Shown: one piece after another, positions 40,663 to 63,017 of the stretch
How the letters are laid out: every line of letters starts with the position of its first letter
How positions within the stretch are numbered: the first letter of the stretch is position 1
DNA from: Cladochytrium replicatum
Lineage: Eukaryota; Chytridiomycota; Chytridiomycetes; Cladochytriales; Cladochytriaceae
DNA: 64,000 bases
NCBI GenBank assembly: GCA_025526935.1
Contig: JAHLKD010000069.1
Location: forward strand, 186,001-250,000
Reading direction: 5' to 3'
Made by a program: the position numbers and the translations under genes
Notes under the pieces: model-generated
Told to the model about the DNA's origin: nothing
The model's input: only the letters and a program-made list of their open reading frames with translations
Database searches by the model: none

Positions 40663-42911
40663 ATGTTGTCGTTTGTGGTTGCATTCCCGATCACGGTCGT
40701 TGTTGCCGCGGCACTATGGACAGTTTATCTCTATGTCCAAATGCTCCGTCGAGCAGCTGAGCTCCGCAAGCTGAACCCTGATATCCCGATCTATACCGCA
40801 TTCAACCGTTCCACGGGGGTGACAAAGTTGTTTTTCGTCGGTGTGCAAAGACGCTTGGGATTGCCCTTCACTCAAGGATGGCAGATGCGCACAAAATACG
40901 AAAGATTCCAGAAGAGGTGCGTGGGATAGGCGGGCTGTTGCTCTTTGCTGATGGGAATCCTTATCCAGTAAGGACGGAATAATTGCAATCGTGCATGCGT
41001 TTGGTGTTGAGTATCATGTGGCGAACCCTGAGTATGTTCGGCACATGGCCATGAACGGCCAAGATTTCAGAAAGCCAACGGAGCTCTGTAACTAGGAGAA
41101 ATTACCCTCAACTTACGCTAGTTGACCAAAAATGCTTCTTTTAATATACAGACGCTATCGTCGACATCTTTGGAGAGACTTCGATTCTCTCTGCGGACGG
41201 TGATGCGTGAGAGTCACAATCTTTTAGCGCGTGACCGAAATGTTGCTAACCGAATGTCCTAGATGGAAGCGGCATAGAAGAGTTGCAGGGCCTCATTTCT
41301 CAGAGAAGAATAACGCAGCAGTCAACGAAACAACCTTAAGAATTGTCCGATCTTTGACAGAAAAGTCGACTGTCAAGGGTGAACTAGAAATCGACCCATT
41401 CGACGTGAGTCCAGCAAAGATGGCTGCTACCGGGCTTACTGAAGCTTATCAACGCATCAGTTTGCAATCGAGCTTACTCTCGGTGTGCTTTGCGAAGCAG
41501 CGTTCGGAGTGACGTACGAGGTTCATAGCCAGGTAAGCAGTCAATTCTAGCGACTTAAATCTCCAGCTAACGAGCAGAATTAAGGGCGAAGTACCTCCTG
41601 GCTTCCACATGAGCTTCCAAGAAGCCCTCAACACAGTGAAAGACAACGTTGGATTTTATCTCCTTGTACCTAAACCCCTTTTGAAATCAATTCCTATGAA
41701 GTTCACCCAGAAGCTATACAATGCGTTCTATGGTTTGTTTTGGCGTCTGAATCATGTCACAAAAAATGAGTCTCTTTCCAGATTTCGAACAGCATGTGTT
41801 CAGATTGATTCGAAATGCGCGAGAGAACAAAGATCAAATTTCGGGGACGCTATTATCGAATATGGTTCGAGCTGTTGACGCCGATTCTGACAGTAGAAAC
41901 CACTTGTCTGAGCAAGAGCTCCTTGCAGACAGCTTCATCTTTTTCAGTGCAGTAAGTTCAAGTATTCATCCATATTTTGATCAATATCTGATTGTTTCAC
42001 TCCAGGGACACGAGGTATACAGACCAGAGGAATGAGAAAAGCTGGACACACACTTACGTTCAGAATTGAATAGACGACAGCAAACGCTTTGACATTTACT
42101 ATGACACTTCTGGCGCTGCATCCGGAATATCAAGAAAGGTTGAGGGAAGAGGTTATTACTGTCACAGGTGGAGCGGGCAAGCTCCCAGAATACAGGCAGC
42201 TCCGAGAACTCAAGCTTCTTAACGTAACTTCGTCAAATCGCTCACATACAAAAACAAGATAAACCCGTTGCCATTGTAGGCTGTCATGAACGAATCTCTT
42301 AGAATGTTTCCGGTGGCCTCTGAGAGTAGGTGCTCTCCCACAGCCGTGGAAATATTGTTTACTTTCCCATTTATACTGTAGTTCCCAAGGTGGCTAGCAC
42401 GGGAGCAAATGGAACAGCCAAATACCAGAAGCTGGGCAACCATTTCATCCCAGCAACATCGGGGCCTGTTAATCACTTTGACAAGCATGTTATTCAGATC
42501 AGCCATGTTGCTCTGCACAACAACCCAGCATATTGGGGGCCAGACCCGGAGGCATTCCGACCCGAACGCTTCCTCGAGCCCGCTATGACTGCCGAAGACG
42601 AAGACGACAATGCCACGATGCTTCCCATACGACACTATGCGTTCACGCCGTTCTCAACTGGTGCGCGTCGATGCATCGGACAGCGCTTCAGCCGTTCCCA
42701 GTTCCTTTCAGCGGTTGCGTTCTTGGTGATGGAGTACAAGTGGGGTGTGTCTCCTAAGGTGGTCGCTGGGAGGGAGAGAATGGGAAAGGACGAGATCGAA
42801 GCTGCTACTAGGCGGTACGCTGAGCACGCTCTTGCGGAAACTAATGGAATGCCGACAATCCGGATCGGAGCGGCGGTGAAACTATTGCTGAGGAAGAGGG
42901 TCCAAACCTAA
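40663..42911 (+). CDS. Cytochrome P450 monooxygenase, copy 2
   Basis: Starts MLSFVVAFPITVVVAAALW (signal anchor) with basic hinge QMLRRAAELRKLNPD. About eleven exons. Helix-C block AWKRHRRVAGPHFSEKNN, then FAIELTLGVLCEAAFGV; I-helix FIFFSA, the 9-nt exon GHE (42006-42014), then TTANALTFTMTLLALHPEY; ExxR in MNESLRMFP; NPAYWGPDPEAFRPERF; haem loop FTPFSTGARRCIGQRF. Ends LRKRVQT. All P450 landmarks present; substrate unknown. The divergent BCS1-like gene separates it from its paralogue on the other strand. Confidence 0.92.
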
Positions 42912-43146: not shown

Positions 43147-45862
43147 ATGGCCGGCGAAAAGAAGAAGACTGTCGAAAAGAAGCCCTCGGAGAAGAAGCTT
43201 GCCGACAAAAAGGGTGCTCCGTCGAAAGATGCCCCTGCCGGGCCTGCTGAGGTGAGGATCCAATATGCTGACAGAGAGCTTCCTGCCGAAGCGATTGCTC
43301 CATCTTGCCAGACCAATTTTCTGACGAGCTCCTTTCCATTATATTCTCAACCGATCAATTTGACCGACCATTTCCGGGCGAGTCAGGCAGAGTACATTGC
43401 TCATCGCATTGCAATGTTTGATGACCTGAAGAAGAAGCACAATGAGTTTGTCGCTGGTAGTCTTCAATTCTTTACACCATTCCTTTTTCTCACTTCCGCT
43501 GGCACATTCCAGCGCAACCCCGTGTCCCCATCAAGATCACCTTGCCTGACGGTCGGGTCATGGACGGAACATCTTGGGAGACTACCCCGCTCGATATCGC
43601 AAAGATGATTCGAAAATCTCTTGCCAACGAGGCCGTCATTTCGCGGGTGGATGGCGAGTTGTGGGATTTGGTCCGCCCCTTCGAAAAAGATGCGACCTGT
43701 GAAATTTTAACCTTCGAAGACGAAGATGGTGAGTTGGAGAAGAACAAAGAATTAAGCTTAATTCTCATTCGGACGTTCAGGGAAGCAGGTTTTCTGGCAT
43801 TCGTCGGCACACGTCCTGGGTGAGGCGTGCGAACAGCACTGGGGTTGCCACTTGTGTCTGGGACCTCCTCTTGAGGACGGTTTCTATTACGAAATGGGGA
43901 TGGAAGGGTACGTATAAATCCGGGTTCCGAAAGTCGGTCCTCACAAGTTTTGTCAGGTCTGCCTCTCAAACAGATTACCCTGCCCTGGAGAAGCTTGCAT
44001 CGAAGGCAATCAAAGAAGCTCAGCCATTTGAGCGTCTTTTGATGACGAAGGGAGAGCTGCTCGAGATGTTCAAACACAACAAATACAAGCAGCGCTTCAT
44101 CAACGACAAAGTACCGGATGGAACCTCCAGTACTGTTTATCGCTGTGGACCTCTGATCGATCTTTGCAGAGGTCCGCACGTGCCGCACACTGGAAGGATC
44201 AAGGCATTCAAGGTCACCAAGGTTAGTACAGTAATTTTGTGAGATGAATTGCTCTCTGATTGCATCGTTTCTGCTAATAGAACTCGTCATCATACTTCCT
44301 TGGCGATGCAAAGAATGACTCGCTACAACGCATTTACGGAATCTCGTTCCCTGAAGCCAAGCAGCTGAAGGAGTGGGAGCAAATCATGGCGGAGGCTGCA
44401 AAGCGGGACCACCGGAAGTTGGGCCAGGTGCGTCTTCATGAGGATAATCCCGTGAGAAAGTGCTTCAGTGGTATTGAATCACACTTCCTTCACAGGAGCA
44501 AGAGCTATTCTTCTTCCACGAGTTGAGCCCAGGAACTGCATTCTGGCTACCGCACGGAGCAAAGATCTACAACACTCTTATTGAACTGCAACGCGTAAGT
44601 GCTGTAGTACGTCTTAAGCGACGAAATATTGATGGAACCCTTCAAATTTTCAGAATGAGTACCGAAAGCGTGGATTCCAAGAGGTAATTTCGCCAAACAT
44701 GTACAACACCAAGCTGTGGGAGATCTCGGGACACTGGCAGAACTACCAAGAAAATATGTTTGGCTTCGAGGTCGAGAAGGAGAAGTTCGCTTTGAAGCCG
44801 ATGAACTGTCCCGGCCATTGTCTGATGTTTAAGCATCGAGATCGCTCGTACCGTGAGCTTCCTCTTCGAATGGCTGATTTCGGCGTTCTTCATCGCAATG
44901 AGTACTCGGGTGCATTGAGTGGACTCACCCGAGTTCGTCGATTCCAGCAAGATGATGCCCACATTTTCTGCACCATGGATCAGGTATAAATTGTGAATTT
45001 CTTGAGAAAGATTGTAAAGCTAAAGGTTTTTGAGTAGCTTGCTGCAGAGATGGATTCTTGCATGGACTTCATCAACCACATCTATGGAATATTTGGGTTT
45101 ACTTTCCAAATGGCGCTTTCTACCCGCCCTGAGAAGTACCTTGGTGAGCTTGAAACCTGGAACAAAGCCGAGGCCATTCTCGCGGACGCTCTGACCAAGT
45201 TCACCGGCGACCGAAAGAAATGGAGCATCAACGAGGCAGACGGTGCATTCTACGGACCAAAGATCGACATCACCATCCAGGATGCTCTCAAGCGGAAATT
45301 TCAGTGCGCCACCGTGCAGCTCGATTTCCAGCTCCCTGAACGGTTCGGTCTCGAGTACCAGAGCAACGACCCCGCCAACCCTCTGCAGCGACCCGTCATG
45401 ATCCACCGTGCCATCCTCGGTTCCGTGGAGCGTTGTACCGCAATCTTGATGGAGCACTTTGGCGGAAAGTGGCCCTTCTGGCTGTCTCCGCGTCAGGCCA
45501 TCGTGATCCCCGTCGTTCCCGCCTTCAACGCGTACGCCGAAAAGGTCGCCAAGCGCTTCTTCGATGCTGGGTTCGAGGTCGAAGCCGACGTGAGCGACCA
45601 GACCATGCAGAAGAAGGTGCGCAACGCCGAGCTTGGGCAGTTCAACTTTATGTTTGTGGTTGGAGAAAAAGAGCAGGAGGGCGAAGCGGTGAACGTACGA
45701 AACCGCGACCAGGACCAGAAGGACAAGGGACGTGGAACCATGGTTCCTGTGGAGGAGATGATTGCCGTGTTCAAGGTCTTGAAGGAGACCAAGGCGAAGA
45801 GCAGTGTGGGGTCGGAGTTGACTGCACCGTCGGTTGCGAAGAAGGCTGATGCCAGTGCTTAG
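43147..45862 (+). CDS. THRS: Threonyl-tRNA synthetase, upstream copy
   Basis: Nine exons: 43147-43251, 43387-43456, 43513-43728, 43781-43907, 43957-44221, 44281-44427, 44496-44594, 44654-44983 and 45038-45862. Lys-rich N-terminal extension, TGS domain ([16 protein letters not shown]), editing/SAD domain with [16 protein letters not shown] and [19 protein letters not shown], class II core with MNCPGHC (Zn ligand Cys), motif 2 in [31 protein letters not shown] and motif 3 in [16 protein letters not shown], then the anticodon-binding domain. Charges tRNA-Thr; the N-terminus has no mitochondrial presequence, so cytosolic. Tandem partner lies 385 bp downstream. Confidence 0.95.
44171..44947 (+). 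repeat. Near-identical ThrRS block, copy 1 side
   Basis: 777 bp that match 47190-47966 at a constant offset of 3019 without indels, through four introns. I noticed about three substitutions, all in introns. Confidence 0.9.
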
Positions 45863-46247
45863 ATGGAAATTGACGTTTGAATACATTTTGATTATCATTC
45901 TTGTTGAAGTCAAAAAACTTGTTTGGAAGTACATCCATGTGATCTCTGTGAGCGATTTATCATAAAATGTATGTTTTGCAGGATTTTTGGATTATGGAGC
46001 CCTGCTGACTCTATCAGGCCATATTGTACCTGAATACGCAGCTTACGTAATCCTTCGCTGTGAGAGTATGACCGATAGTCAGGTTAAACAGCTGTCCCAC
46101 AACCATACCTCTCTGCATTTTCTCTAAAGGTCCAATTGTGGGACAGGATGATATTTTGGACTGAATCACCAGAACCAACCTCTCTGTTCGAAAATTTTCA
46201 TCGTTATAAATTTGGGTGGGAATGGTGTCTTCACAACAACCTGAGAA
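45863..46247. other. Spacer between tandem ThrRS genes
   Basis: 385 bp holding the 3' flank of copy 1 and the promoter of copy 2. No other gene. Confidence 0.5.
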
Positions 46248-48884
46248 ATGAAGCCCACTGAGAAGAACTTGTCCGACAAGAAAGGTGCCAAGTCAAAGGA
46301 TTCTTCTTCCGGATCCGCTGAGGTGAGAATTCACAAGAACAATGACTCTGTTCTCTTTGGAACTGTCGATCGCTAATTTGCTCGTGCTTTATCAGACGAA
46401 CAAGCCGGAGTACATCGCTCACCGCATTGCCATGTTCGACGAGCTAAAGAAGAATCATAACAAATTCATTGCCGGTATGAATATCCAATTGATCTCGCTC
46501 ACTCTAATTCGGCGCATTTCAGCCCAATCGCATGCCCCCATCAAGATCACTCTACCCGATGGCCGAATCATGGATGGAAAATCTTGGGAGACTACCCCGC
46601 TCGATATCGCTAAGATGGTTCGAAAATCGCTCGCCAACGATGCTGTGATTTCACGGGTTGACGGCGAGTTGTGGGATTTGACTCGCCCCTTCGAAAAAGG
46701 TGCGACCTGCGAAATTTTGACTTTCGAAGACGAAGATGGTGAGTTGGAGGAGGCCGGAACGTTGTACTGGATTCCTTTTTGAAATGCACATGTGCAGGAA
46801 AGCAGGTTTTCTGGCATTCGTCGGCACACGTCCTGGGTGAGGCGTGCGAGCAGCACTGGGGCTGCCACCTGTGTTTGGGACCTCCTCTTGAGGATGGTTT
46901 CTATTACGAAATGGGGATGGAAGGGTTCGTAGAGTAATTCTTTCAGAATGGCCGCAGGACTGATGATGTTACTAGGTCTGCATCGCAGGCTGATTACCCG
47001 GTTCTTGAAAGGCTTGCGTCGAAGGCGATCAAAGAATCCCAGCCTTTTGAGCGCCTTGTGATGACCAAGAGTGAGCTTCTTGAGATGTTCAAACACAACA
47101 AATACAAGCAGCGCTTCATCAACGACAAAGTGCCAGATGGAACTTCCAGTACGGTCTACCGCTGTGGGCCGCTCATTGATCTGTGCAAAGGTCCGCACGT
47201 GCCGCACACTGGAAGGATCAAGGCATTCAAGGTCACCAAGGTTAGTACGGTAATTTTGTGAGATGAATTGCTCTCTGATTGCATCTTTTCTGCTAATAGA
47301 ACTCGTCATCATACTTCCTTGGCGATGCAAAGAATGACTCGCTACAACGCATTTACGGAATCTCGTTCCCTGAAGCCAAGCAGCTGAAGGAGTGGGAGCA
47401 AATCATGGCGGAGGCTGCAAAGCGGGACCACCGGAAGTTGGGCCAGGTGCGTCTTCATGAGGATAATCCCGTGAGAAAGTGCTTCAGTGGTATTGAATCA
47501 CATTTCCTTCACAGGAGCAAGAGCTATTCTTCTTCCACGAGTTGAGCCCAGGAACTGCATTCTGGCTACCGCACGGAGCAAAGATCTACAACACTCTTAT
47601 TGAACTGCAACGCGTAAGTGCTGTAGTACGTCTTAAGCGACGAAATATTGATGGAACCCTTCAAATTTTCAGAATGAGTACCGAAAGCGTGGATTCCAAG
47701 AGGTAATTTCGCCAAACATGTACAACACCAAGCTGTGGGAGATCTCGGGACACTGGCAGAACTACCAAGAAAATATGTTTGGCTTCGAGGTCGAGAAGGA
47801 GAAGTTCGCTTTGAAGCCGATGAACTGTCCCGGCCATTGTCTGATGTTTAAGCATCGAGATCGCTCGTACCGTGAGCTTCCTCTTCGAATGGCTGATTTC
47901 GGCGTTCTTCATCGCAATGAGTACTCGGGTGCATTGAGTGGACTCACCCGAGTTCGTCGATTCCAGACCGATGATGCCCACATTTTCTGCACCATGGATC
48001 AGGTATATATGATAAATTTTCTTGAGTGAGATTGCCCGGCTAATAATGGTGGTAATTAGCTTGCTGTAGAGATGGATTCTTGCATGGACTTCTTTCACGA
48101 GATCTATGGAATATTTGGGTTTTCTTACCAAATGGCGCTTTCCACACGTCCGGAAAAGTATCTTGGCGAACTTGACGCCTGGAATAGAGCCGAAGACGTA
48201 CTCGCCAAGACTTTGACCAAATTCCTTGGAAATAGAAAAAAGTGGGCCATTAACGAAGGTGATGGGGCTTTCTACGGCCCGAAGATCGACATCACCATCC
48301 AGGATGCGCACAAGCGGAAGTTCCAGTGCGCTACTGTGCAACTCGACTTCCAGCTTCCCGAACGTTTTGATCTCGAATACCAGAGCAACGACCCTGCGAA
48401 CCCATTGCAGCGACCCGTCATGATCCACCGTGCCATCCTCGGGTCCGTGGAACGCTTCACCGCTATCTTGATGGAACACTTTGGCGGAAAGTGGCCCTTC
48501 TGGATTTCTCCGCGTCAGGCCATCGTGATCCCAGTCGTACCCTCCTACAACGATTACGCTGAAAAGGTGGCCAAGCGCTTCTTCAATGCTGGTTTTGAGG
48601 TCGAAGCAGACGTGAGTGATTCAACCATGCAGAAGAAGGTGCGCAACGCCGAGCTTGGGCAGTTCAACTTTATGTTTGTGGTTGGAGAGAAAGAGCAGGA
48701 AGGCGACGCGGTGAACGTGCGAAACCGCGACCAGGACCAGAAGGACAAGGGACGTGGAACCATGGTTCCTGTGGAGGAGATGATTGCCGTGTTCAAGGTC
48801 TTGAAGGAGACCAAGGCGAAGAGCAGTGTGGGGTCGGAGTTGACTGCACCGTCGGCTGCGAAGAAGGCTGATGCCAGTGCTTAG
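46248..48884 (+). CDS. THRS: Threonyl-tRNA synthetase, downstream copy
   Basis: Same nine-exon layout: 46248-46322, 46396-46474, 46523-46738, 46798-46924, 46976-47240, 47300-47446, 47515-47613, 47673-48002 and 48060-48884. It begins [18 protein letters not shown] and lacks about ten residues of the Lys-rich start of copy 1; an upstream ATG in the leader is out of play because its frame stops at once. All catalytic, zinc and editing motifs are kept ([39 protein letters not shown]). Some exons differ clearly from copy 1 ([17 protein letters not shown] against [17 protein letters not shown]), others are almost base-identical including introns. The donor of intron 4 is GTTCGT, weaker than copy 1. 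Appears intact. Confidence 0.93.
47190..47966 (+). repeat. Near-identical ThrRS block, copy 2 side
   Basis: Partner of 44171-44947. The sequences immediately outside diverge (codon after RRFQ/RRFQT changes; flanking introns differ). Confidence 0.9.
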
Positions 48885-49340
48885 ATGGAAATTGATGTTT
48901 TGAAACAACGCTGTCCAGAACCTGGAAGTTAAAAGATTCTTGTGTGATTCGGCCTACTCTTCGGTCCGGAGATTCGCTTCTTGGTATCCTTCTGCTACCT
49001 CGTCGAACAAAGAGATCAAGCATAATAGAGAACCATGATAAATTTCATTATCACCGCAGTGGAGGGTGTAAATTTGCTCTGCTTTGCATTATAATACATA
49101 TGGCACTGCCAGCCGTATGTTACGACTGGATAAAGAACACAAATCAAACTACCAAATATGGGCAAAATATACTCTAAAAATGATTCTTATCACTTGAAAG
49201 AGGAATCACGAGTATAGCCCACAATAGCTTGACTTGTTTGGTTGCCATTGGCAACCATAAAACAACAACCTGAATAAAATAATATAATCAGTCACGCATA
49301 GATTGGCACAAATCACAGTGCAACACACACACAACCAATA
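48885..49340. other. Intergenic, no gene seen
   Basis: 3' flank of ThrRS copy 2. A 77-codon plus-strand ORF has no recognisable feature. Confidence 0.3.
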
Positions 49341-53196: not shown

Positions 53197-55391
53197 TTAA
53201 AAGAGTGGGTTATCATCAGTTGCTTCCAATTCTAATACCACATCAAAATCCTTGCCAAAATTATGCACCTTTACAAAATCCTCACTAAAATCACTTTTTG
53301 AATCTAGGGAATCATTTTTGAACGGTTCTTCAGCACTCAATTGATGCAACCAGTCATGACGGCACATCAACTCATTTATTGTTCTTGGAGCAAGGCGGTT
53401 GCGAGTTGCAGGTACCAAATCAACCCCGGCTGAAAACTTTCGTTCGACTGGAGCGCTTGTTGCTGGTATTCCTAAATAGTCCATTGCCATCTGGCTTAGG
53501 GCTGGAAAGTTCACACTTCCAACGGTCTTCCACCAGTCCATAATATTGATTGGCTTCCCATCAGAATCAATACCGCGGAGTACCTGATCGCCAAGATAGC
53601 GATCCAGCTCATCTTTTTCCTCAGGAATCTCTTCTTGCCAAATGAAAACAGATCTAATGGCTCTCAAGCGTTCAGCGTCTGTTTTTTTCTGTCTATCACC
53701 GGAAGCTCTGCTCGAATCGTGTCGACATTCTGGAGTGTTTCCAAAAACATCGGCACCACTGTTCTTGATTTTCCGTGACTTATACGATTCCTCCCAGACT
53801 TTCCGCACTAGGGTGACCTGATCCCTTCCTACATCTTTCTCCCAAGCCTTTTAAAATCGATAATATTGATCCTTAAAGCGAGGATCGAGTCCTGTAGCAA
53901 CTGCTAAACACGGGCTCTTAGCGATTGAGTAATATATTCTCAGCTTATCTAGTGCATTTCGAAATGCTTTGGTGAAAGTTTCATCCAATTCTGCCTCCTC
54001 TAGGTCCTCCAGTTGATTGATAAGATCGTTGTAAAATGGAATAACAAGCGGAAGTGTTGGATATCTAGACCCCTCGATTGCCTTTGATATAACCTCGAAA
54101 ACACTCAAACCATCCCGGATCTTCTGTAGGACCTCCCATTGCTTTGGATTTATTGACCAATCTTTCAAAGAATCTTCAATCCAGCATATTTTGTCCATTG
54201 CCTCTCCGAGAGTAGCTGTAAGGCTTGTTTGACCATATAGAAGGTGCTATTCCAGCGAGTTGTCACATCGATAATTGGTAATAGAGGAACCAGTTTCACA
54301 AATCGGCACGAATCAATAAATGAGCTTTGTCGTTTTGGGGAAGACCGGATTAGCCGTCGAAGAAGGGTTATGACATTAACGCTGGAGTTATCGTCATTTG
54401 CGACTGTGTCCCCTGCGGGCGCGAATGTATTGATAAAATCCTTTGCTGCAAGATTGATAATGTGTGTCATACACCGCATGTGTTGAGTTTCTGCACACCA
54501 CGCAATATCCCTATCTTCCAATAGCGTCTCCAGCTTAGCACTCATGGTAAAGTTGTTTGAACCGTTGTCGGTTGTAATGCACAATAAGCGTTCACTCGAT
54601 AGCATGCCAAGTTCATCCAGACACTTGACAAGCTGATTAGCCATGGCGATGCCTTCATGCTTTCCAACCATCGGAATCATTTGCAGCAGCAAGTCCTGCG
54701 GCTCCCATTCTTTCGTGATGAAGTGGGCAGTAATTCCAAGAAAAGAAATCTGGTTCTTCGATGTCCAACAGTCAGCTGTTATTGATACTTTTGAAGGCAA
54801 ACCAACAATCAGACCTTTAACGAGCTCCTTCTGCCTATCGTAAAGATCCATCTCCTTTTGCTTCACTGCTTTTGCCGTCTTTGTGTATAGTTTGGCTGAA
54901 AAGTCTTCAGCATGCTGACAAAGAACTCGTTCTCCACAACAGTAAAGCCTGATTGTCTGCAGCAATCCAGTCCAAAATCCACCGCCACGCTACGTCTGGA
55001 TTGAACACAAAGTTTGCTCCTTCTCCTGCGAGCCGAAATTCAATGTCTGTTGTCCCTTGGGGACGACAGACAACAGTCCAAGCGACCTCGCAATACTTCC
55101 ATGGTGGTTTTTCAGATGCCGGAAGATGTTTTTTGTTGATCCTGTCTTATCGACCTTCTGGCTCCACTTGCATTTCGCAACCAAACATGTTCTCAGACCA
55201 TTATCAACCTTATAGTAATCCTTCGCTATGCCGCCTCGACTACCTCTACAGTCCGACATGCTACCAACATCTGCGTCTGATGAAAGCATTGATGGTTGAA
55301 CTGATCCAGCTGCAGGCTCCTGTCGCACTGAAGAGTCAGCAAAACTAACGTCGGCAGGAAGCTCTGGTGCACGCTGAGAAGCCAGGCCCAA
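53197..55391 (-). pseudogene. hAT-family transposase, decayed
   Basis: Minus-strand frames give an N-terminal BED-type zinc finger (CLVAKCKWSQKVDKTGSTKN then HLKNHHG), a region WRWILDWIAADNQ, then TADCWTSKNQISFLGITAHF, ITTDNGSNN, HMRCMTHIINLAAKD, DVTTRWNSTFYMVKQAL, and the C-terminal dimerisation block MDYLGIPATSAPVERKFSAG with RTINELMCRHDWLH. Frame is lost near 55000-54900 (TAG and shifts), near 54215 (one-base shift before MDKICWIEDS) and at TAA 53851-53853 (QYYRF*KAWEK). No intron explains these. Non-autonomous today. Confidence 0.85.
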
Positions 55392-57130: not shown

Positions 57131-59059
57131 CCTCCTCCAACACAGTTGCACAAATGATGAACTGCATGGATTGGTTTGGTGCCAAATTTGGATATATTAA
57201 ATTATTTAGACATCCTTGTAACGATTGTAACGAGCGGGTTTTGGAGAACAGATTTGTTTGTTACCTGTACCAAACCTGTCACAAACATTTGTGGCGGGTA
57301 CCAAATTTGGTTGGAGGACATCCAATGGGAAGCAGAACCCAAATAAGAACATATAACACGCCCTAGATTCACTCGTTCTGATTGATCAACATAGAATTTC
57401 GCATGTATAACCTAGCAAAGTGAGTTCTGGTGTGTCGACTTGTTGGAATTCTATCAAATCCCAAAATATCGTCATCATGCTTTGTTCTTTCATTGTCTGG
57501 TATTTTGTTCTTCACTTTCTAGGATCTGGAAGTGTCCACGTTGTATCTTACCAGAGTAAAGACGTCAATTGAGAAGCTCATCTCAATCTCTATGAAAACT
57601 TCAGGAAAAGCAACGAAAGTCATGGTGTGGACACAAAGTTTGACAATCAAAGGTCAAATAGAAACAAAATTGCCAAAAAGCTGCAGAACCACGCAGACAA
57701 TATCACAACAAATTACATTATCTCCACATTATACTTGTTGTTGCTTTTAGTTCCCTACTCATGGGATTTCTTGTCCTGAGATCCTTTAAGCTGTGTTGTG
57801 CTGCCATGTGGACCATATGCTGCAACATCCAAGTCAATTTAGTCTTGGACATCACAAAATAACTATCTTAAAGCGATTCCTTCTCTGTGCTTAAGTACAT
57901 TTCAATTATTTCACAGAAAAATTGAAGTAGAATGCAATGTACGCACGGAACGGATGAATTAGATAGCATAAAGTTCCCTTGTCATTAACTTGTTTGGGAA
58001 GTGGAGGTACTTCAAAACAACGGATTCCATATTGGGTGAGATTGACACGGAGTTATGTAAGGCCTAATCATTTCATGGTCCAAACTGCCATCGAACAGCT
58101 CGCTGCAAGGATTGTTGCGGAGAAAGGTATGAGCTTCCTCTGGATTCTGGATGTGATCGTGAGCTTCCTCTGGATTCTGGATGTGATCGTGGACTCTAAA
58201 AGCAGTTGGAACCACGAAAGATATGTATGAGCTTCTCACACTGTGACTTTAGGCAATCCTGAACTGGGAAGACTCTGTCTCTGATGTTTCTGAAAAGATT
58301 TTGTAAATGGATGCTGAAATAGCATGTGAACTATTGGACTGTGAGCGCAGTGCCGAAATGTGAACGAAAGTTCCGGGGTGACTGTGATCAGTTTCAAGAA
58401 TAGAATCGAGCCGTGCACCTGTATAATGCTTTGTGATCGGGAAAACTGCGCAAAGCTCAGACGGAAAGCGGACACAAAAGGAGAGCTTAAAACCTATTCA
58501 GTTTCTGAAGTATCTGAGCAAAGGGCAAACATTATACTCACTGCGACTAAATCTAAAATGAGTGCTTCTGTTGGAATTCCATCAAGAATTACAGACTCAT
58601 TATAGATATCTCAACATCTTGATTTCACCAGGCTTCCAATTCACGTTAAGGTTGTCTCTCTCCAATCAAAATGTGATCTCGTTTCTCAACCTTTACAGCA
58701 AAAACTCGAGCGTTTTTCATGACTGGTCGTTTCCCTGTGACAAGCCACCGCTCACGCTCCTTGATCCGCACAATTATGTCTTCTACTCTGATCCCCAAGT
58801 ATTAATATTTGTTGGCACAGCAACCAAATGGCGCAGTCTCCAGTAAAACTGCTGAAACTTTTGCCGCAAAGACCGGATCACACCAGCATTCGCAAGTCCA
58901 GCGCTCATGCGCATGGTGGGTCTGCTCTGCGCTTCTGGTAAGGTGCATGTTTAACCTGACTGCCGATATCGCTTCGAAACACAGACCAAATCCAACACGT
59001 ACAAGCATTATTGAACAAAACTTTTGAAACGCTGGGGCCGATTCAAGTGATCATTCCTG
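57131..59059. other. Gene-poor region, probable transposon debris
   Basis: Only short ORFs. At ~57185-57310 two CCAAATTTGG-like blocks (GGTGCCAAATTTGGATA, GGTACCAAATTTGGTTGG) bracket ~110 bp. A 30-bp tandem duplication lies at ~58130-58190. No gene supported. Confidence 0.4.
58131..58190. repeat. 30-bp direct tandem duplication
   Basis: Two adjacent copies of a unit beginning GAGCTTCCTCTGGATTC and ending GATGTGATCGT, apparently identical. Confidence 0.9.
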
Positions 59060-62000
59060 ATGTCTGTAGAGCAGCATACTCATTCAGGTGCAGCTATATA
59101 CAGCCAACAGCGGCAGCTTCAACCGAGCTCGACACTGTCCCTGGCACGGAAGCGAAATATCTCGGCTGGGAGCTCCCTGGCGTCAATATTCAACAGCATG
59201 ACAAATGGGAGCGAAGTCGACAAGCAAAAATCAGGCTCGCCAAAGATCTCCATTTTATCACCAAAGACCACCTCACCGCAACTGTCAAAATCACCCTTTA
59301 CATTTCCGACTACAATCTTTTGGCAAGCACTCACATGGCCACCCAGTCACCAAATTCCCACCCAGTTCTGCTTAACAATGATCACACAATGGCAGCTCCC
59401 TCCGCCGATTCTACCCACTCCGTTTACACCCGTGTCGTCGCCCACCGCTATTCCCATCCCTATATATTCGGTTCCTCCCTCACCGCCTCTGTCACTTCCC
59501 AATTCATCAATATCACGATCTCCGTCGTCTCCACAATTTATGTACATAGATCCGGAGGATTTGGAGAGGATACTGACGAGCGGGACGCGAATGACAAAGC
59601 TCCCCACAAAGGCAAGCTCACGACCTGAAGATCGGGGAGCTTTTCCCTCCTCAAATATCTTGGGAGTCTCGCAAGAAGAAGAGTCTCCTCTCGACAGGTA
59701 TTTCATCTAGTTAACGGATTTTTGAGCCAACTAATGACGCTCTAATAGTTGACTTCCATGCCATAAAGGAAATTCGCCTTAACCAAAACACCAAAGCGTT
59801 CGAGTTTCATGGAAAGCTTCCTGATGCTGAGGATCGCTCCTTTTCCATTATCTACGTTGGGGATGGTGAATACAAGATGCTAAATCTTGGTATTTATTGA
59901 ATTTTTTCAATGATTCAACTTTGTATTGAGAAAAACTTCAGTTGCTCCCGATAGGCAAACCTGCTCGTTGTGGGTTTCTGGACTGTACATGCTCCTGTCA
60001 CAAATCAACCATCCTACTCGAACAAGCTCACCAGCGCAGTTGTACACATCAACAGCAGCTTGGCTGCGAAGAAAGTGGCGGGAGGGTGTTTCGCAAACAT
60101 ATTCTTCTGGGGAAAGGTCTGCCTCTGCTTCTCCGGCTTTATCCCCGCTGTCCTCCGAGGTCGGGGTGGACGGCCTTAATCTAGATGGAGTGACCACGCT
60201 CCTTCGGCGACTCAACATGAACGTATCCAAATCGGAAGTGAAGGCGATTTTTAAGCCTGCGGACGTTTCCAAAGGCACGAACCTCACTTTCGAGGCATTC
60301 GACAAGCTCTATAGGCAAATTCGTTTTCGGCCAGATATTGCGGAGATCTTCTCGTCGCTTGCCAGAGCAGAGATTTTCGCGCTGACCTTCGAAGAGTTCA
60401 AAAACTTTATGACTCACACACAAAAGGTATGCGATTTATGATTAATCTCCGGCCGATTCTCATCTCAGAAAAATAGACGACCTGGACAGAGGAGAGATTA
60501 CGAGAAATTTATTAAAAGTTCTCATCCAATCACAGCGCTGATTCCGCGAGCAGTGCTCGAATGGAATGGACCATTTCGCCGCTTTTCTTCTTTCCACGTA
60601 CAACTCTATCTTCCCAAAAGCGCAGATGGAAGTGTGCGAAGACATGACGCAACCTCTCTGCGCCCACTTTATTGATTCCTCGCACAACACATATTTGCTT
60701 GGAGACCAGATTGCTGGAGAAAGTTCTATCGAGGGATACGTCCGCGCACTTCAAAGAGGATGTCGTTGCGTTGAATGTGAGTTGAAATCCTTTATGTTCA
60801 TTCCTAACAGACTTCTCATTGCAACCTCGCAGTGGATTGCTGGGATGGACCAAACAACCAACCAGTGATCTACCATGGGAGGACGCTGTAAGTTCTTTCG
60901 ATAAATTTGAATACTGGTTTCGCTTGAAAGGATGCTTTACTCATCTCACAGTGTAGAACGAATAAAATCCAGTTGCGGGACATAATCGAGGCAATTGCCA
61001 CTTACGGATTCGTTACATCGCCGTACCCTATCATATTGTCCCTTGAGATGCATTGTTCCGTGATGCAGCAAGAAGTCATTGCTCAGATCTTGCAAGAGCA
61101 TCTGGGAGAACAACTTCTGACTGGCGACATATCTTCATATCCCAGTCCAGAGAGCTTGATGAAGCGAGTGTTGGTCAAGGTAACAATCACCTCTGCACGC
61201 CATCCATTTCGTTGTACTAAACAGATACACAGGGCAAGCGAATGCCTCCTCATAACCTCTCGGATGAGTACGAGACAGATGTGGATGATGAAGAAGATGC
61301 GGGCTATTCCGAAGAGGTTTATGCGAATGGGATTTCCACAAACAGTCTTGGTTGTTTGGCTTCAACCTCGAAGCCAATTAGCTCCACTCCACCACAGTCT
61401 TGGTTGTTTGGCTTCAACCTCGAAGCCAATTAGCTCCACTCCACCACAGAACTACGCTGGTGGATTCCTTGCAAAGAGATTTACACCTGATACCATGAAA
61501 GGCATCGAGTTGGTATCCGATGCCATTATCCCTATCCCGCCAGACGCCGTCACAAATGATGATGAAGGAAACGAAGAATCGAACGGCGAGTTCGCAGTTG
61601 CCGATACAGAGAGCGTCGAGCAGCTCCCGGAGTTTCAGGAAGAACCTAGTGGCCGCAGTGTTGTGCCCCGAGGAATGGGTGGTTTGGGTTTGGTGAGCCT
61701 ACTGGATGGCCCGGCGAGTAATCCACCGCCAGTTCCGCTGCCGATCCGGGTTAACTCCCCCGCAGCTTTCCCAACCATTACTTCGTCGGGCTCTGCGACT
61801 GCACTAAAACGACTGCGATCAACCGACGAGATGAATACTCTGGGGAGGCGTCAGAGGGAGCGAACGCGTGTCAAGATTGCGCGAGCACTGTCGGAACTAA
61901 TCTTCCTCTTCATAAGCGCACGACATTTCAACGGCCTCGAAGAGAATGTTCAGGGCGGCGTGCTGTCGTTGTCGGAGCGCAAGATGGACCGCCTGGCGGT

Positions 62001-63017
62001 GAAGGAGCAGTTGAAGATGATCAAATTCACGCGTCGGCGGATCGTGCGGTGCTATCCCAAAGCCATCAGGTTCAGCAGCTCTAACTACGAGCCTGTTCGC
62101 CAGTGGGCGGGTGGTGTCCAGATGGTGGCGCTCAATTTCCAAACATGGGGTGAGTTGTAGAACCTATTCGATGGCTAAGTCAACTAACACGATTTTGACC
62201 AAAAGATCGCTCAATGGAAGTTAACACGGCTATGTTTGCTGTGAACGGACACTGTGGCTATCGGCTGAGGCTAGCGTACTTGAGAGAGCCTGGGGGGGCT
62301 CGTTGCCCACCGATGCAACTTACAATTAAAACCATTTCGGGACAGCAGCTCCCAAGAGCCAAAGAGAACTCGACTGGTATCGTTGATCCGTTTGTTGAGG
62401 TTGAACTTCTGGACGGCAGTGATGCGGATGTTAACTGCCAGAAGACCCGAGCAGTGTCTTCAAACGGTATATCTATTTCTAGCTGCATTAATTTGCGACT
62501 GATGAATTGAACAGGATTCAACCCTCGCTGGAAGGAATCATTTGTTTTTGCGGTGGTCCAGCCAGACCTCTCGTTTGTGAGGTTCTCTGTGTATGATAGC
62601 GGTGCGAAAGGTGGATCGGATCTGATTGGTATCTACACAATATGTTTCAATTCCATAGAACAAGGTAAACTTTTCTTTCTCATCAAAAAGGTTCCTAACG
62701 ATTGCCTCTCAATAGGTTACCGTCATGTCCCATTGTACAACTTAAGTGGAGAGCTTCATCGGCTCTCCACACTATTCGTATACATATCGAAATCTGCACT
62801 GTCACCCACGCACCGTCGGGGCTCTTCCTCCGAACCAGTTGGCTTGGGAAGCTTTAAACTGGAGGAACCACAAGCGATCGCCGGGAATGACTCTGATCGG
62901 ACATCCACGTCAACCATCGGGACTGCGTTTGCGGTCGCTCTTGGGGCTGTCAAGTTTATGAAACTTATCAAGCCATCGGGGAGAGGACGTGGAGGAAGAG
63001 CAGGTGGAAAAGGTTAA
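59060..63017 (+). pseudogene. PLC1: Phosphoinositide-specific phospholipase C, frame-broken
   Basis: All PI-PLC parts occur in order: LERILTSGTRMTKLPTKA and ISWESRKKKSLLS with PH-like VDFHAIKEIRLNQNTKAFEF; EF-hand-like NMNVSKSEVKAIFKPADV; X domain with DMTQPLCAHFIDSSHNTYLL (catalytic His), CRCVE/LDCWDGPNNQPVIYHGRTL (second His) and PYPIILSLEMHCS; Y domain with RRIVRCYPKAIRFSSSNYEP and GGVQMVALNFQTW; then a C2 domain (STGIVDPFVEVELL, NPRWKESFVFAV). Introns are mostly clear (acceptor AACGAATAAA restores LTNKIQLRD). Breaks: a one-base shift near 59620, a stop/frame change near 60540-60565, and a 52-bp duplication in the X-Y linker. It would hydrolyse PIP2 to IP3 and DAG if intact. Could be a working gene with sequence errors. 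Confidence 0.8.
61343..61446. repeat. 52-bp tandem duplication in PLC linker
   Basis: Two adjacent copies starting CAGTCTTGGTTGTTTGGC at 61343 and 61395. 52 is not a multiple of three, so reading through shifts frame and ends at TAG around 61431. Confidence 0.92.

Follow-up and report, generated by a model that had tools for sequence, protein, structure and literature searches.

The question raised by this locus is why a chytrid fungus should carry, side by side, two genes for threonyl-tRNA synthetase (ThrRS) that are almost identical in some stretches, introns included, and clearly different in others. The two genes, here called copy A and copy B, lie in a window of 64,000 nucleotides from Cladochytrium replicatum (assembly GCA_025526935.1, contig JAHLKD010000069.1, positions 186,001 to 250,000 of the forward strand), whose numbering is used throughout for positions given without a contig (Table 1). 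The pattern is well supported as the outcome of patchy gene conversion between older duplicates. The conversion itself is ordinary; the notable part is an active-site change in copy B, at the codon where the longest homogenised segment ends.

Table 1. Coordinates of the ThrRS genes, the homogenised segments and the associated features in the window.
Feature	Position	Strand	Remarks
ORF upstream of A, encoding a C-terminal cytochrome P450 part	42330..42911	+	counterpart at C31:97541-98134 flanks copy C
ThrRS copy A	43147..45862	+	9 exons, 727 aa; cytosolic type; well-supported conversion donor
Copy A exons	43147-43251, 43387-43456, 43513-43728, 43781-43907, 43957-44221, 44281-44427, 44496-44594, 44654-44983, 45038-45862	+	
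Homogenised segment 1 in A	44170..44947	+	778 bp, 3 mismatches, p < 0.001; end of exon 5 to exon 8, with introns 5-7
CAA codon	44948..44950	+	Gln442 of A, motif-2 glutamine, equivalent to E. coli Gln381
Homogenised segment 2 in A	45602..45873	+	272 bp, 5 mismatches, p < 0.001; 3' part of exon 9, plus 11 bp beyond the stop
ThrRS copy B	46248..48884	+	9 exons, 720 aa; divergent copy; well-supported conversion recipient
Copy B exons	46248-46322, 46396-46474, 46523-46738, 46798-46924, 46976-47240, 47300-47446, 47515-47613, 47673-48002, 48060-48884	+	
Homogenised segment 1 in B	47189..47966	+	A-type sequence; offset 3019
ACC codon	47967..47969	+	Thr in B, same site as Gln442; 3/3 bases differ from A
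Homogenised segment 2 in B	48624..48895	+	offset 3022

Patchy identity between the tandem genes

Both tandem copies splice, as had been predicted from the sequence, into an intact open reading frame (ORF) of nine exons, with GT-AG borders at every intron. A Pfam scan of A and B gave, in both and in this order, the TGS, tRNA_SAD, class II core and anticodon-binding domains, and their top PDB matches (A residues 303-707, B residues 296-700) are human cytoplasmic ThrRS, namely 4hwt, 4p3n and 4ttv.

The aligned copies differ at 343 of 2635 ungapped columns. A segment scan of this alignment, using a mismatch penalty and 1000 shuffles, returned two significant segments. The original prediction had placed a block with about three changes at 44171-44947 against 47190-47966, at a constant offset of 3019, and the scan recovered it to within one base, with a score of 715 against 89 for the highest of the shuffles; its mismatches (44230, 44267 and 44484) are all intronic. 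The near-identity described at the 3' end, from about 45602 and 48623, corresponds to the second segment. The four next-ranked segments were not significant in the scan (p 0.31, 0.31, 0.85 and 0.89), and among them is one within exon 4 (43783-43832); this exon was considered as a third conversion patch for its 95% identity between A and B and was rejected.

The introns had also been described as homogenised in patches, and their comparison bears this out: the two copies show 97, 99 and 100% identity in introns 5-7, whereas introns 1-4 and 8 reach 39, 54, 54, 54 and 67%, with shuffled introns aligning at 36-49%. Homogenised introns beside diverged ones rule out uniform coding constraint as the source of the identity, and gene conversion fits. 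Repeated conversion had been proposed as well; a different age of the two events has only marginal support (mismatches 3/778 against 5/272, Fisher p 0.03; silent sites alone, p 0.046). The mosaic identity that includes introns and the sharp ends of the segments are shared with tandem duplicates homogenised by ectopic conversion in general; unlike in those, the long segment ends here at the codon for an otherwise conserved catalytic residue.

A third copy and the direction of conversion

The assembly (50.5 Mb, 198 contigs) was searched for further ThrRS copies. Besides A and B, taken in the original prediction as two cytosolic copies, it holds a third gene of cytosolic type, copy C, on the minus strand of another contig (C31:94535-97252), with 84% DNA identity to A. 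It also holds a mitochondrial-type gene, separate from A, B and C, with matches at C10:398462-400219 that are 53% identical to A over residues 422-699; the top PDB match of its C-terminal ORF is the mitochondrial ThrRS 3ugq. The two tandem copies stand as intact genes, but they are not alone. Copy C is syntenic with the A/B locus, since the upstream P450 and the stretch 58805-63010 of the window match C31 at about 79%. A single ThrRS gene was found there: the next matching stretch on C31 is 1.1 kb away, with no second ThrRS copy between.

With C as a reference it was possible to ask which copy had been the donor. Outside both segments (422 codons) the amino-acid differences are 54 between A and B, 10 between A and C and 55 between B and C, and the synonymous divergence (dS) is 0.87, 0.73 and 1.34 respectively; taken by outside region, dS is 0.68 and 0.80 for A-C and 1.30-1.39 for B-C. 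Within segment 1, in a range extended by the codon at 44168 and by the last part of exon 8, dS falls to 0.004 for A-B and is 0.65 for A-C and 0.66 for B-C, while in segment 2 the values are 0.058, 0.54 and 0.47. By these pairwise distances A and B are the closest pair inside the segments and A and C outside them. Significant segments in a diverged pair, homogenised non-coding sites and conflicting relationships of segments and flanks are thus found together, in line with the original prediction of gene conversion in an older duplicate pair. Since the distance of the shared segments to C is roughly that of A in the remaining regions, A appears as the donor and B as the recipient, a direction which is well supported; for the same reason B as donor was ruled out.

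The order of the duplications can be approached through two residues, for which we used a survey of prokaryotic ThrRS, namely the best 80 of 586 confirmed stretches from loci picked by two patterns that do not contain the motif-2 glutamine site. Residues 520 and 586 (A numbering) are Ala and Cys in both A and C, and Gly (80/80 in the survey) and Phe (78/80) in B. These sites are not absolute markers, because the mitochondrial-type gene has Glu and Met there and human ThrRS also has Met at 586. Nevertheless A and C share changes that B has not, so that B probably branched off before A and C separated. The A/B duplication would then be older than the A/C split, and a B-C dS well above that of A-C also fits.

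The motif-2 codon and selection on copy B

Directly 3' of segment 1, A has the codon CAA and B has ACC, and the next 38 bases are again identical; this three-base difference, absent from the original prediction, is the sole coding difference between the copies in the interval that starts at 44170 and closes with exon 8. The alignment places Gln442 of A four residues ahead of the conserved His that matches the zinc ligand His385, and hence makes it the equivalent of E. coli Gln381, which, according to an excerpt of PMC9880928, binds the carboxylate of threonine.

The site is Gln in 80/80 of the surveyed prokaryotic ThrRS. A second comparison set, which includes every eukaryotic ThrRS examined, consisted of PDB entries 4hwt, 5zy9, 6vu9 and 3ugq together with the genome's own ThrRS genes; in it, all four structures, the mitochondrial-type gene, A and C carry Gln, and Thr occurs only in B among the four genes of the genome. 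The survey has 75 invariant positions: B is the only copy to differ at the motif-2 Gln, A and C differ without B at residue 520, and none of the three copies fits at two further positions. DNA patterns of the motif were also run against 299 genomes of one phylum, where 275 contain the Gln form and 0 the Thr form, the other 24 not having been examined. Across the Cladochytrium genome itself the motif pattern matched A, B, C, the gene on C10 and one place on C36 that lies outside ThrRS matches. Among viral contigs, 18 stretches matched a pattern and none encodes a relative of exon 8 of B. A literature search on ThrRS duplicates, gene conversion and the motif-2 Gln, judged by titles and abstract openings, brought up no description of such a pair.

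The other active-site positions that were checked are preserved in B. The zinc ligands of ThrRS, Cys334, His385 and His511 in E. coli numbering (part of PMC3907816), are kept in A, B and C. Apart from the motif-2 Gln, 11 catalytic positions were checked and all are kept in B; the arginines of motifs 2 and 3 and the other carboxylate-binding Gln are intact. The HxxxH and CxxxH sequences of the editing site are present in all three copies, with 4/4 editing positions kept in B. Compared with human cytosolic ThrRS, A and B share the four domains and the zinc and editing residues, and B differs by Thr at the motif-2 Gln. We describe B as a divergent ThrRS paralogue whose status as an enzyme is putative.

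Because CAA to ACC needs three changes, the Thr codon is most simply read as an old feature of B spared by conversion, either as the first unconverted triplet or as an island; a later multi-base change giving ACC could also account for it. With regard to selection, dN/dS (the nonsynonymous to synonymous ratio; exon 4 left out, 380 codons, 300 bootstraps) is about 0.09 on the B branch (bootstrap median 0.088, 95% 0.05-0.14) and 0.014 for the A-C pair, which indicates that B is under purifying selection, looser than that on A and C.

Taken together, these data suggest the following scenario, which we regard as reasonably probable. A cytosolic ThrRS gene would long ago have been duplicated in tandem, giving A and B, with A retaining the housekeeping role. 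B would have diverged under purifying selection and fixed Gln to Thr at the carboxylate-binding residue of motif 2. Gene conversion, the well-supported part, afterwards pasted A sequence, with its introns, over two or more distinct parts of B, and the tract of segment 1 stopped at, or skipped, the Gln/Thr codon. On this view B would most likely still fold as a ThrRS isoform, its threonine activation reduced or altered, and be maintained next to the normal enzyme. We infer that B is expressed and that its Thr predates the conversion.

Several points weigh against this scenario. The altered catalysis is a prediction only. A mismatch is by definition what closes any segment, and the end of this one at the Gln/Thr codon is hence not in itself evidence of selection; the 38 identical bases that follow cannot be assigned to converted or to original sequence (p 0.85). 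In the unconverted segments the changes of B hit 2/40 invariant against 37/339 other positions (Fisher p 0.41), and 4/67 against 35/312 when conservation is set at 95% (p 0.27). Conserved positions are hence not significantly spared, which speaks against B as an entirely normal enzyme, and the constraint on B argues less strongly for enzyme activity than the dN/dS value alone would imply. The equivalents in B of His309, Cys334, Arg363 and Arg375 sit within segment 1, in converted sequence, and therefore say nothing on B's own history. The separate ages of the two segments have only marginal support, and a faster clock in B could partly mimic an older duplication.

A bolder version of the scenario is that B represents a long-lived second lineage of fungal cytosolic ThrRS, in which selection protects a rebuilt carboxylate site while conversion from A refreshes the rest of the catalytic core, and which has taken on a new job (regulation, an altered response to substrate or inhibitor, or a role as heterodimer partner). 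We put it forward tentatively.

Alternative readings of copy B and its genomic setting

The main rival explanation, possible but in our opinion rather doubtful, is that B is a redundant copy, slowly decaying or kept for dosage, in which Gln to Thr is mildly harmful and tolerated since A and C supply the activity, conversion from A happening to keep B readable. The dN/dS of B, about six times that of the A-C pair, is consistent with this, as are the conserved positions that are not significantly spared and the lack of a second ThrRS copy in the 1.1 kb beside C. However, a dN/dS of about 0.09, with ORF and splice sites intact over a dS of about 0.8, is unlike neutral decay. Moreover, a Gln codon cannot become a Thr codon by fewer than two base changes, and three are seen here, next to a block in which the coding sequence shows no further difference.

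B could instead be a catalytically dead pseudo-synthetase, acting in regulation, in tRNA binding or as partner in an A/B heterodimer, with conversion of the core keeping the dimer interface matched. A precedent for such a loss is mL39, a ribosomal protein that derives from ThrRS and has lost the catalytic role; the matches of mL39 proteins to A and B are confined to the TGS/editing region. The changed residue, moreover, is one that contacts the substrate (excerpt of PMC9880928). We nevertheless find this explanation improbable, because the zinc ligands, the arginines of motifs 2 and 3, the other carboxylate-binding Gln and the four editing residues are intact in B, and the heterodimer is purely hypothetical.

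The original prediction proposed that one copy might be a resistant or regulated form, and a resistant or stress-specific isoform, which found no specific support here, appears quite unlikely. Duplicate ThrRS genes are known in bacteria, including the self-resistance copies of antibiotic producers, and B resembles these in that it, too, is an additional intact ThrRS whose active site is changed. The equivalent of E. coli Leu489, the borrelidin-resistance site, is unchanged in A, B and C, and the substituted site of B is not known to confer resistance. Gln381 is not among the residues named, in the excerpt of PMC9880928, as binding obafluorin or shifting with it, and we found nothing linking the motif-2 Gln to drug resistance. 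Finally, no biosynthetic core enzyme occurs among the eight neighbouring ORFs scanned with Pfam at E 0.001, five of which matched (P450, hAT dimerisation, BCS1_N, PI-PLC and a sub-threshold EF-hand) and three of which gave none.

An assembly artefact, a collapsed repeat copied to both places, is very unlikely: the 778 bp do exceed the usual length of short reads, but the block holds three intronic differences and one codon difference at its edge, its flanks are unique on both sides, and segment 2 has five differences of its own.

A mitochondrial isoform was also considered and is unsupported, as B lacks an N-terminal extension and the genome has a separate mitochondrial-type gene. In the stretch 46242-46250, an in-frame TGA (46242-46244) stands two codons ahead of the start codon of B. 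That start codon lines up with codon 11 of A, so that B is without the lysine-rich N-terminus found in A. Between A and B, an 11-bp inverted repeat can form a hairpin (46092-46146; z -2.2; 4/200 shuffles fold equally well), which was rejected as a mobile element, the surrounding 121-bp stretch matching only itself in the genome. Following B, about 10 kb of the window lack a counterpart beside C on C31, and a hAT-family dimerisation domain was found in them at 53197-53850.

The region shared with C extends well beyond the ThrRS genes. Positions 30793-63927 of the window and C31:87791-105118, which include the P450, ThrRS and PI-PLC region, are syntenic but rearranged, at 69-85% DNA identity. 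An RPB2-type gene also occurs twice (C39:321001-324744 and C18:352140-355867), 86% identical over 3.7 kb and with a dS of 0.48 in one exon, and ThrRS is thus not the only duplicated locus. When whole-genome duplication was considered as the origin of C, MCM domains were found at 8 places and RPB2 domains at 4. On this comparison the genome contains, in part, two versions that have diverged strongly from each other; some segments are duplicated, and C31 and the contig of the window (C69) may be either homeologues or very divergent nuclear haplotypes.

Concerning the meaning of the pair for the ThrRS family, if B is active, a seemingly fixed residue would prove replaceable, and the role of the motif-2 Gln381 would become directly testable; if it is inactive, B would be a new pseudo-synthetase. 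Either way, A and B, with C as outgroup, would offer a natural case in which to ask whether selection sets the limits of a conversion tract at a single codon.

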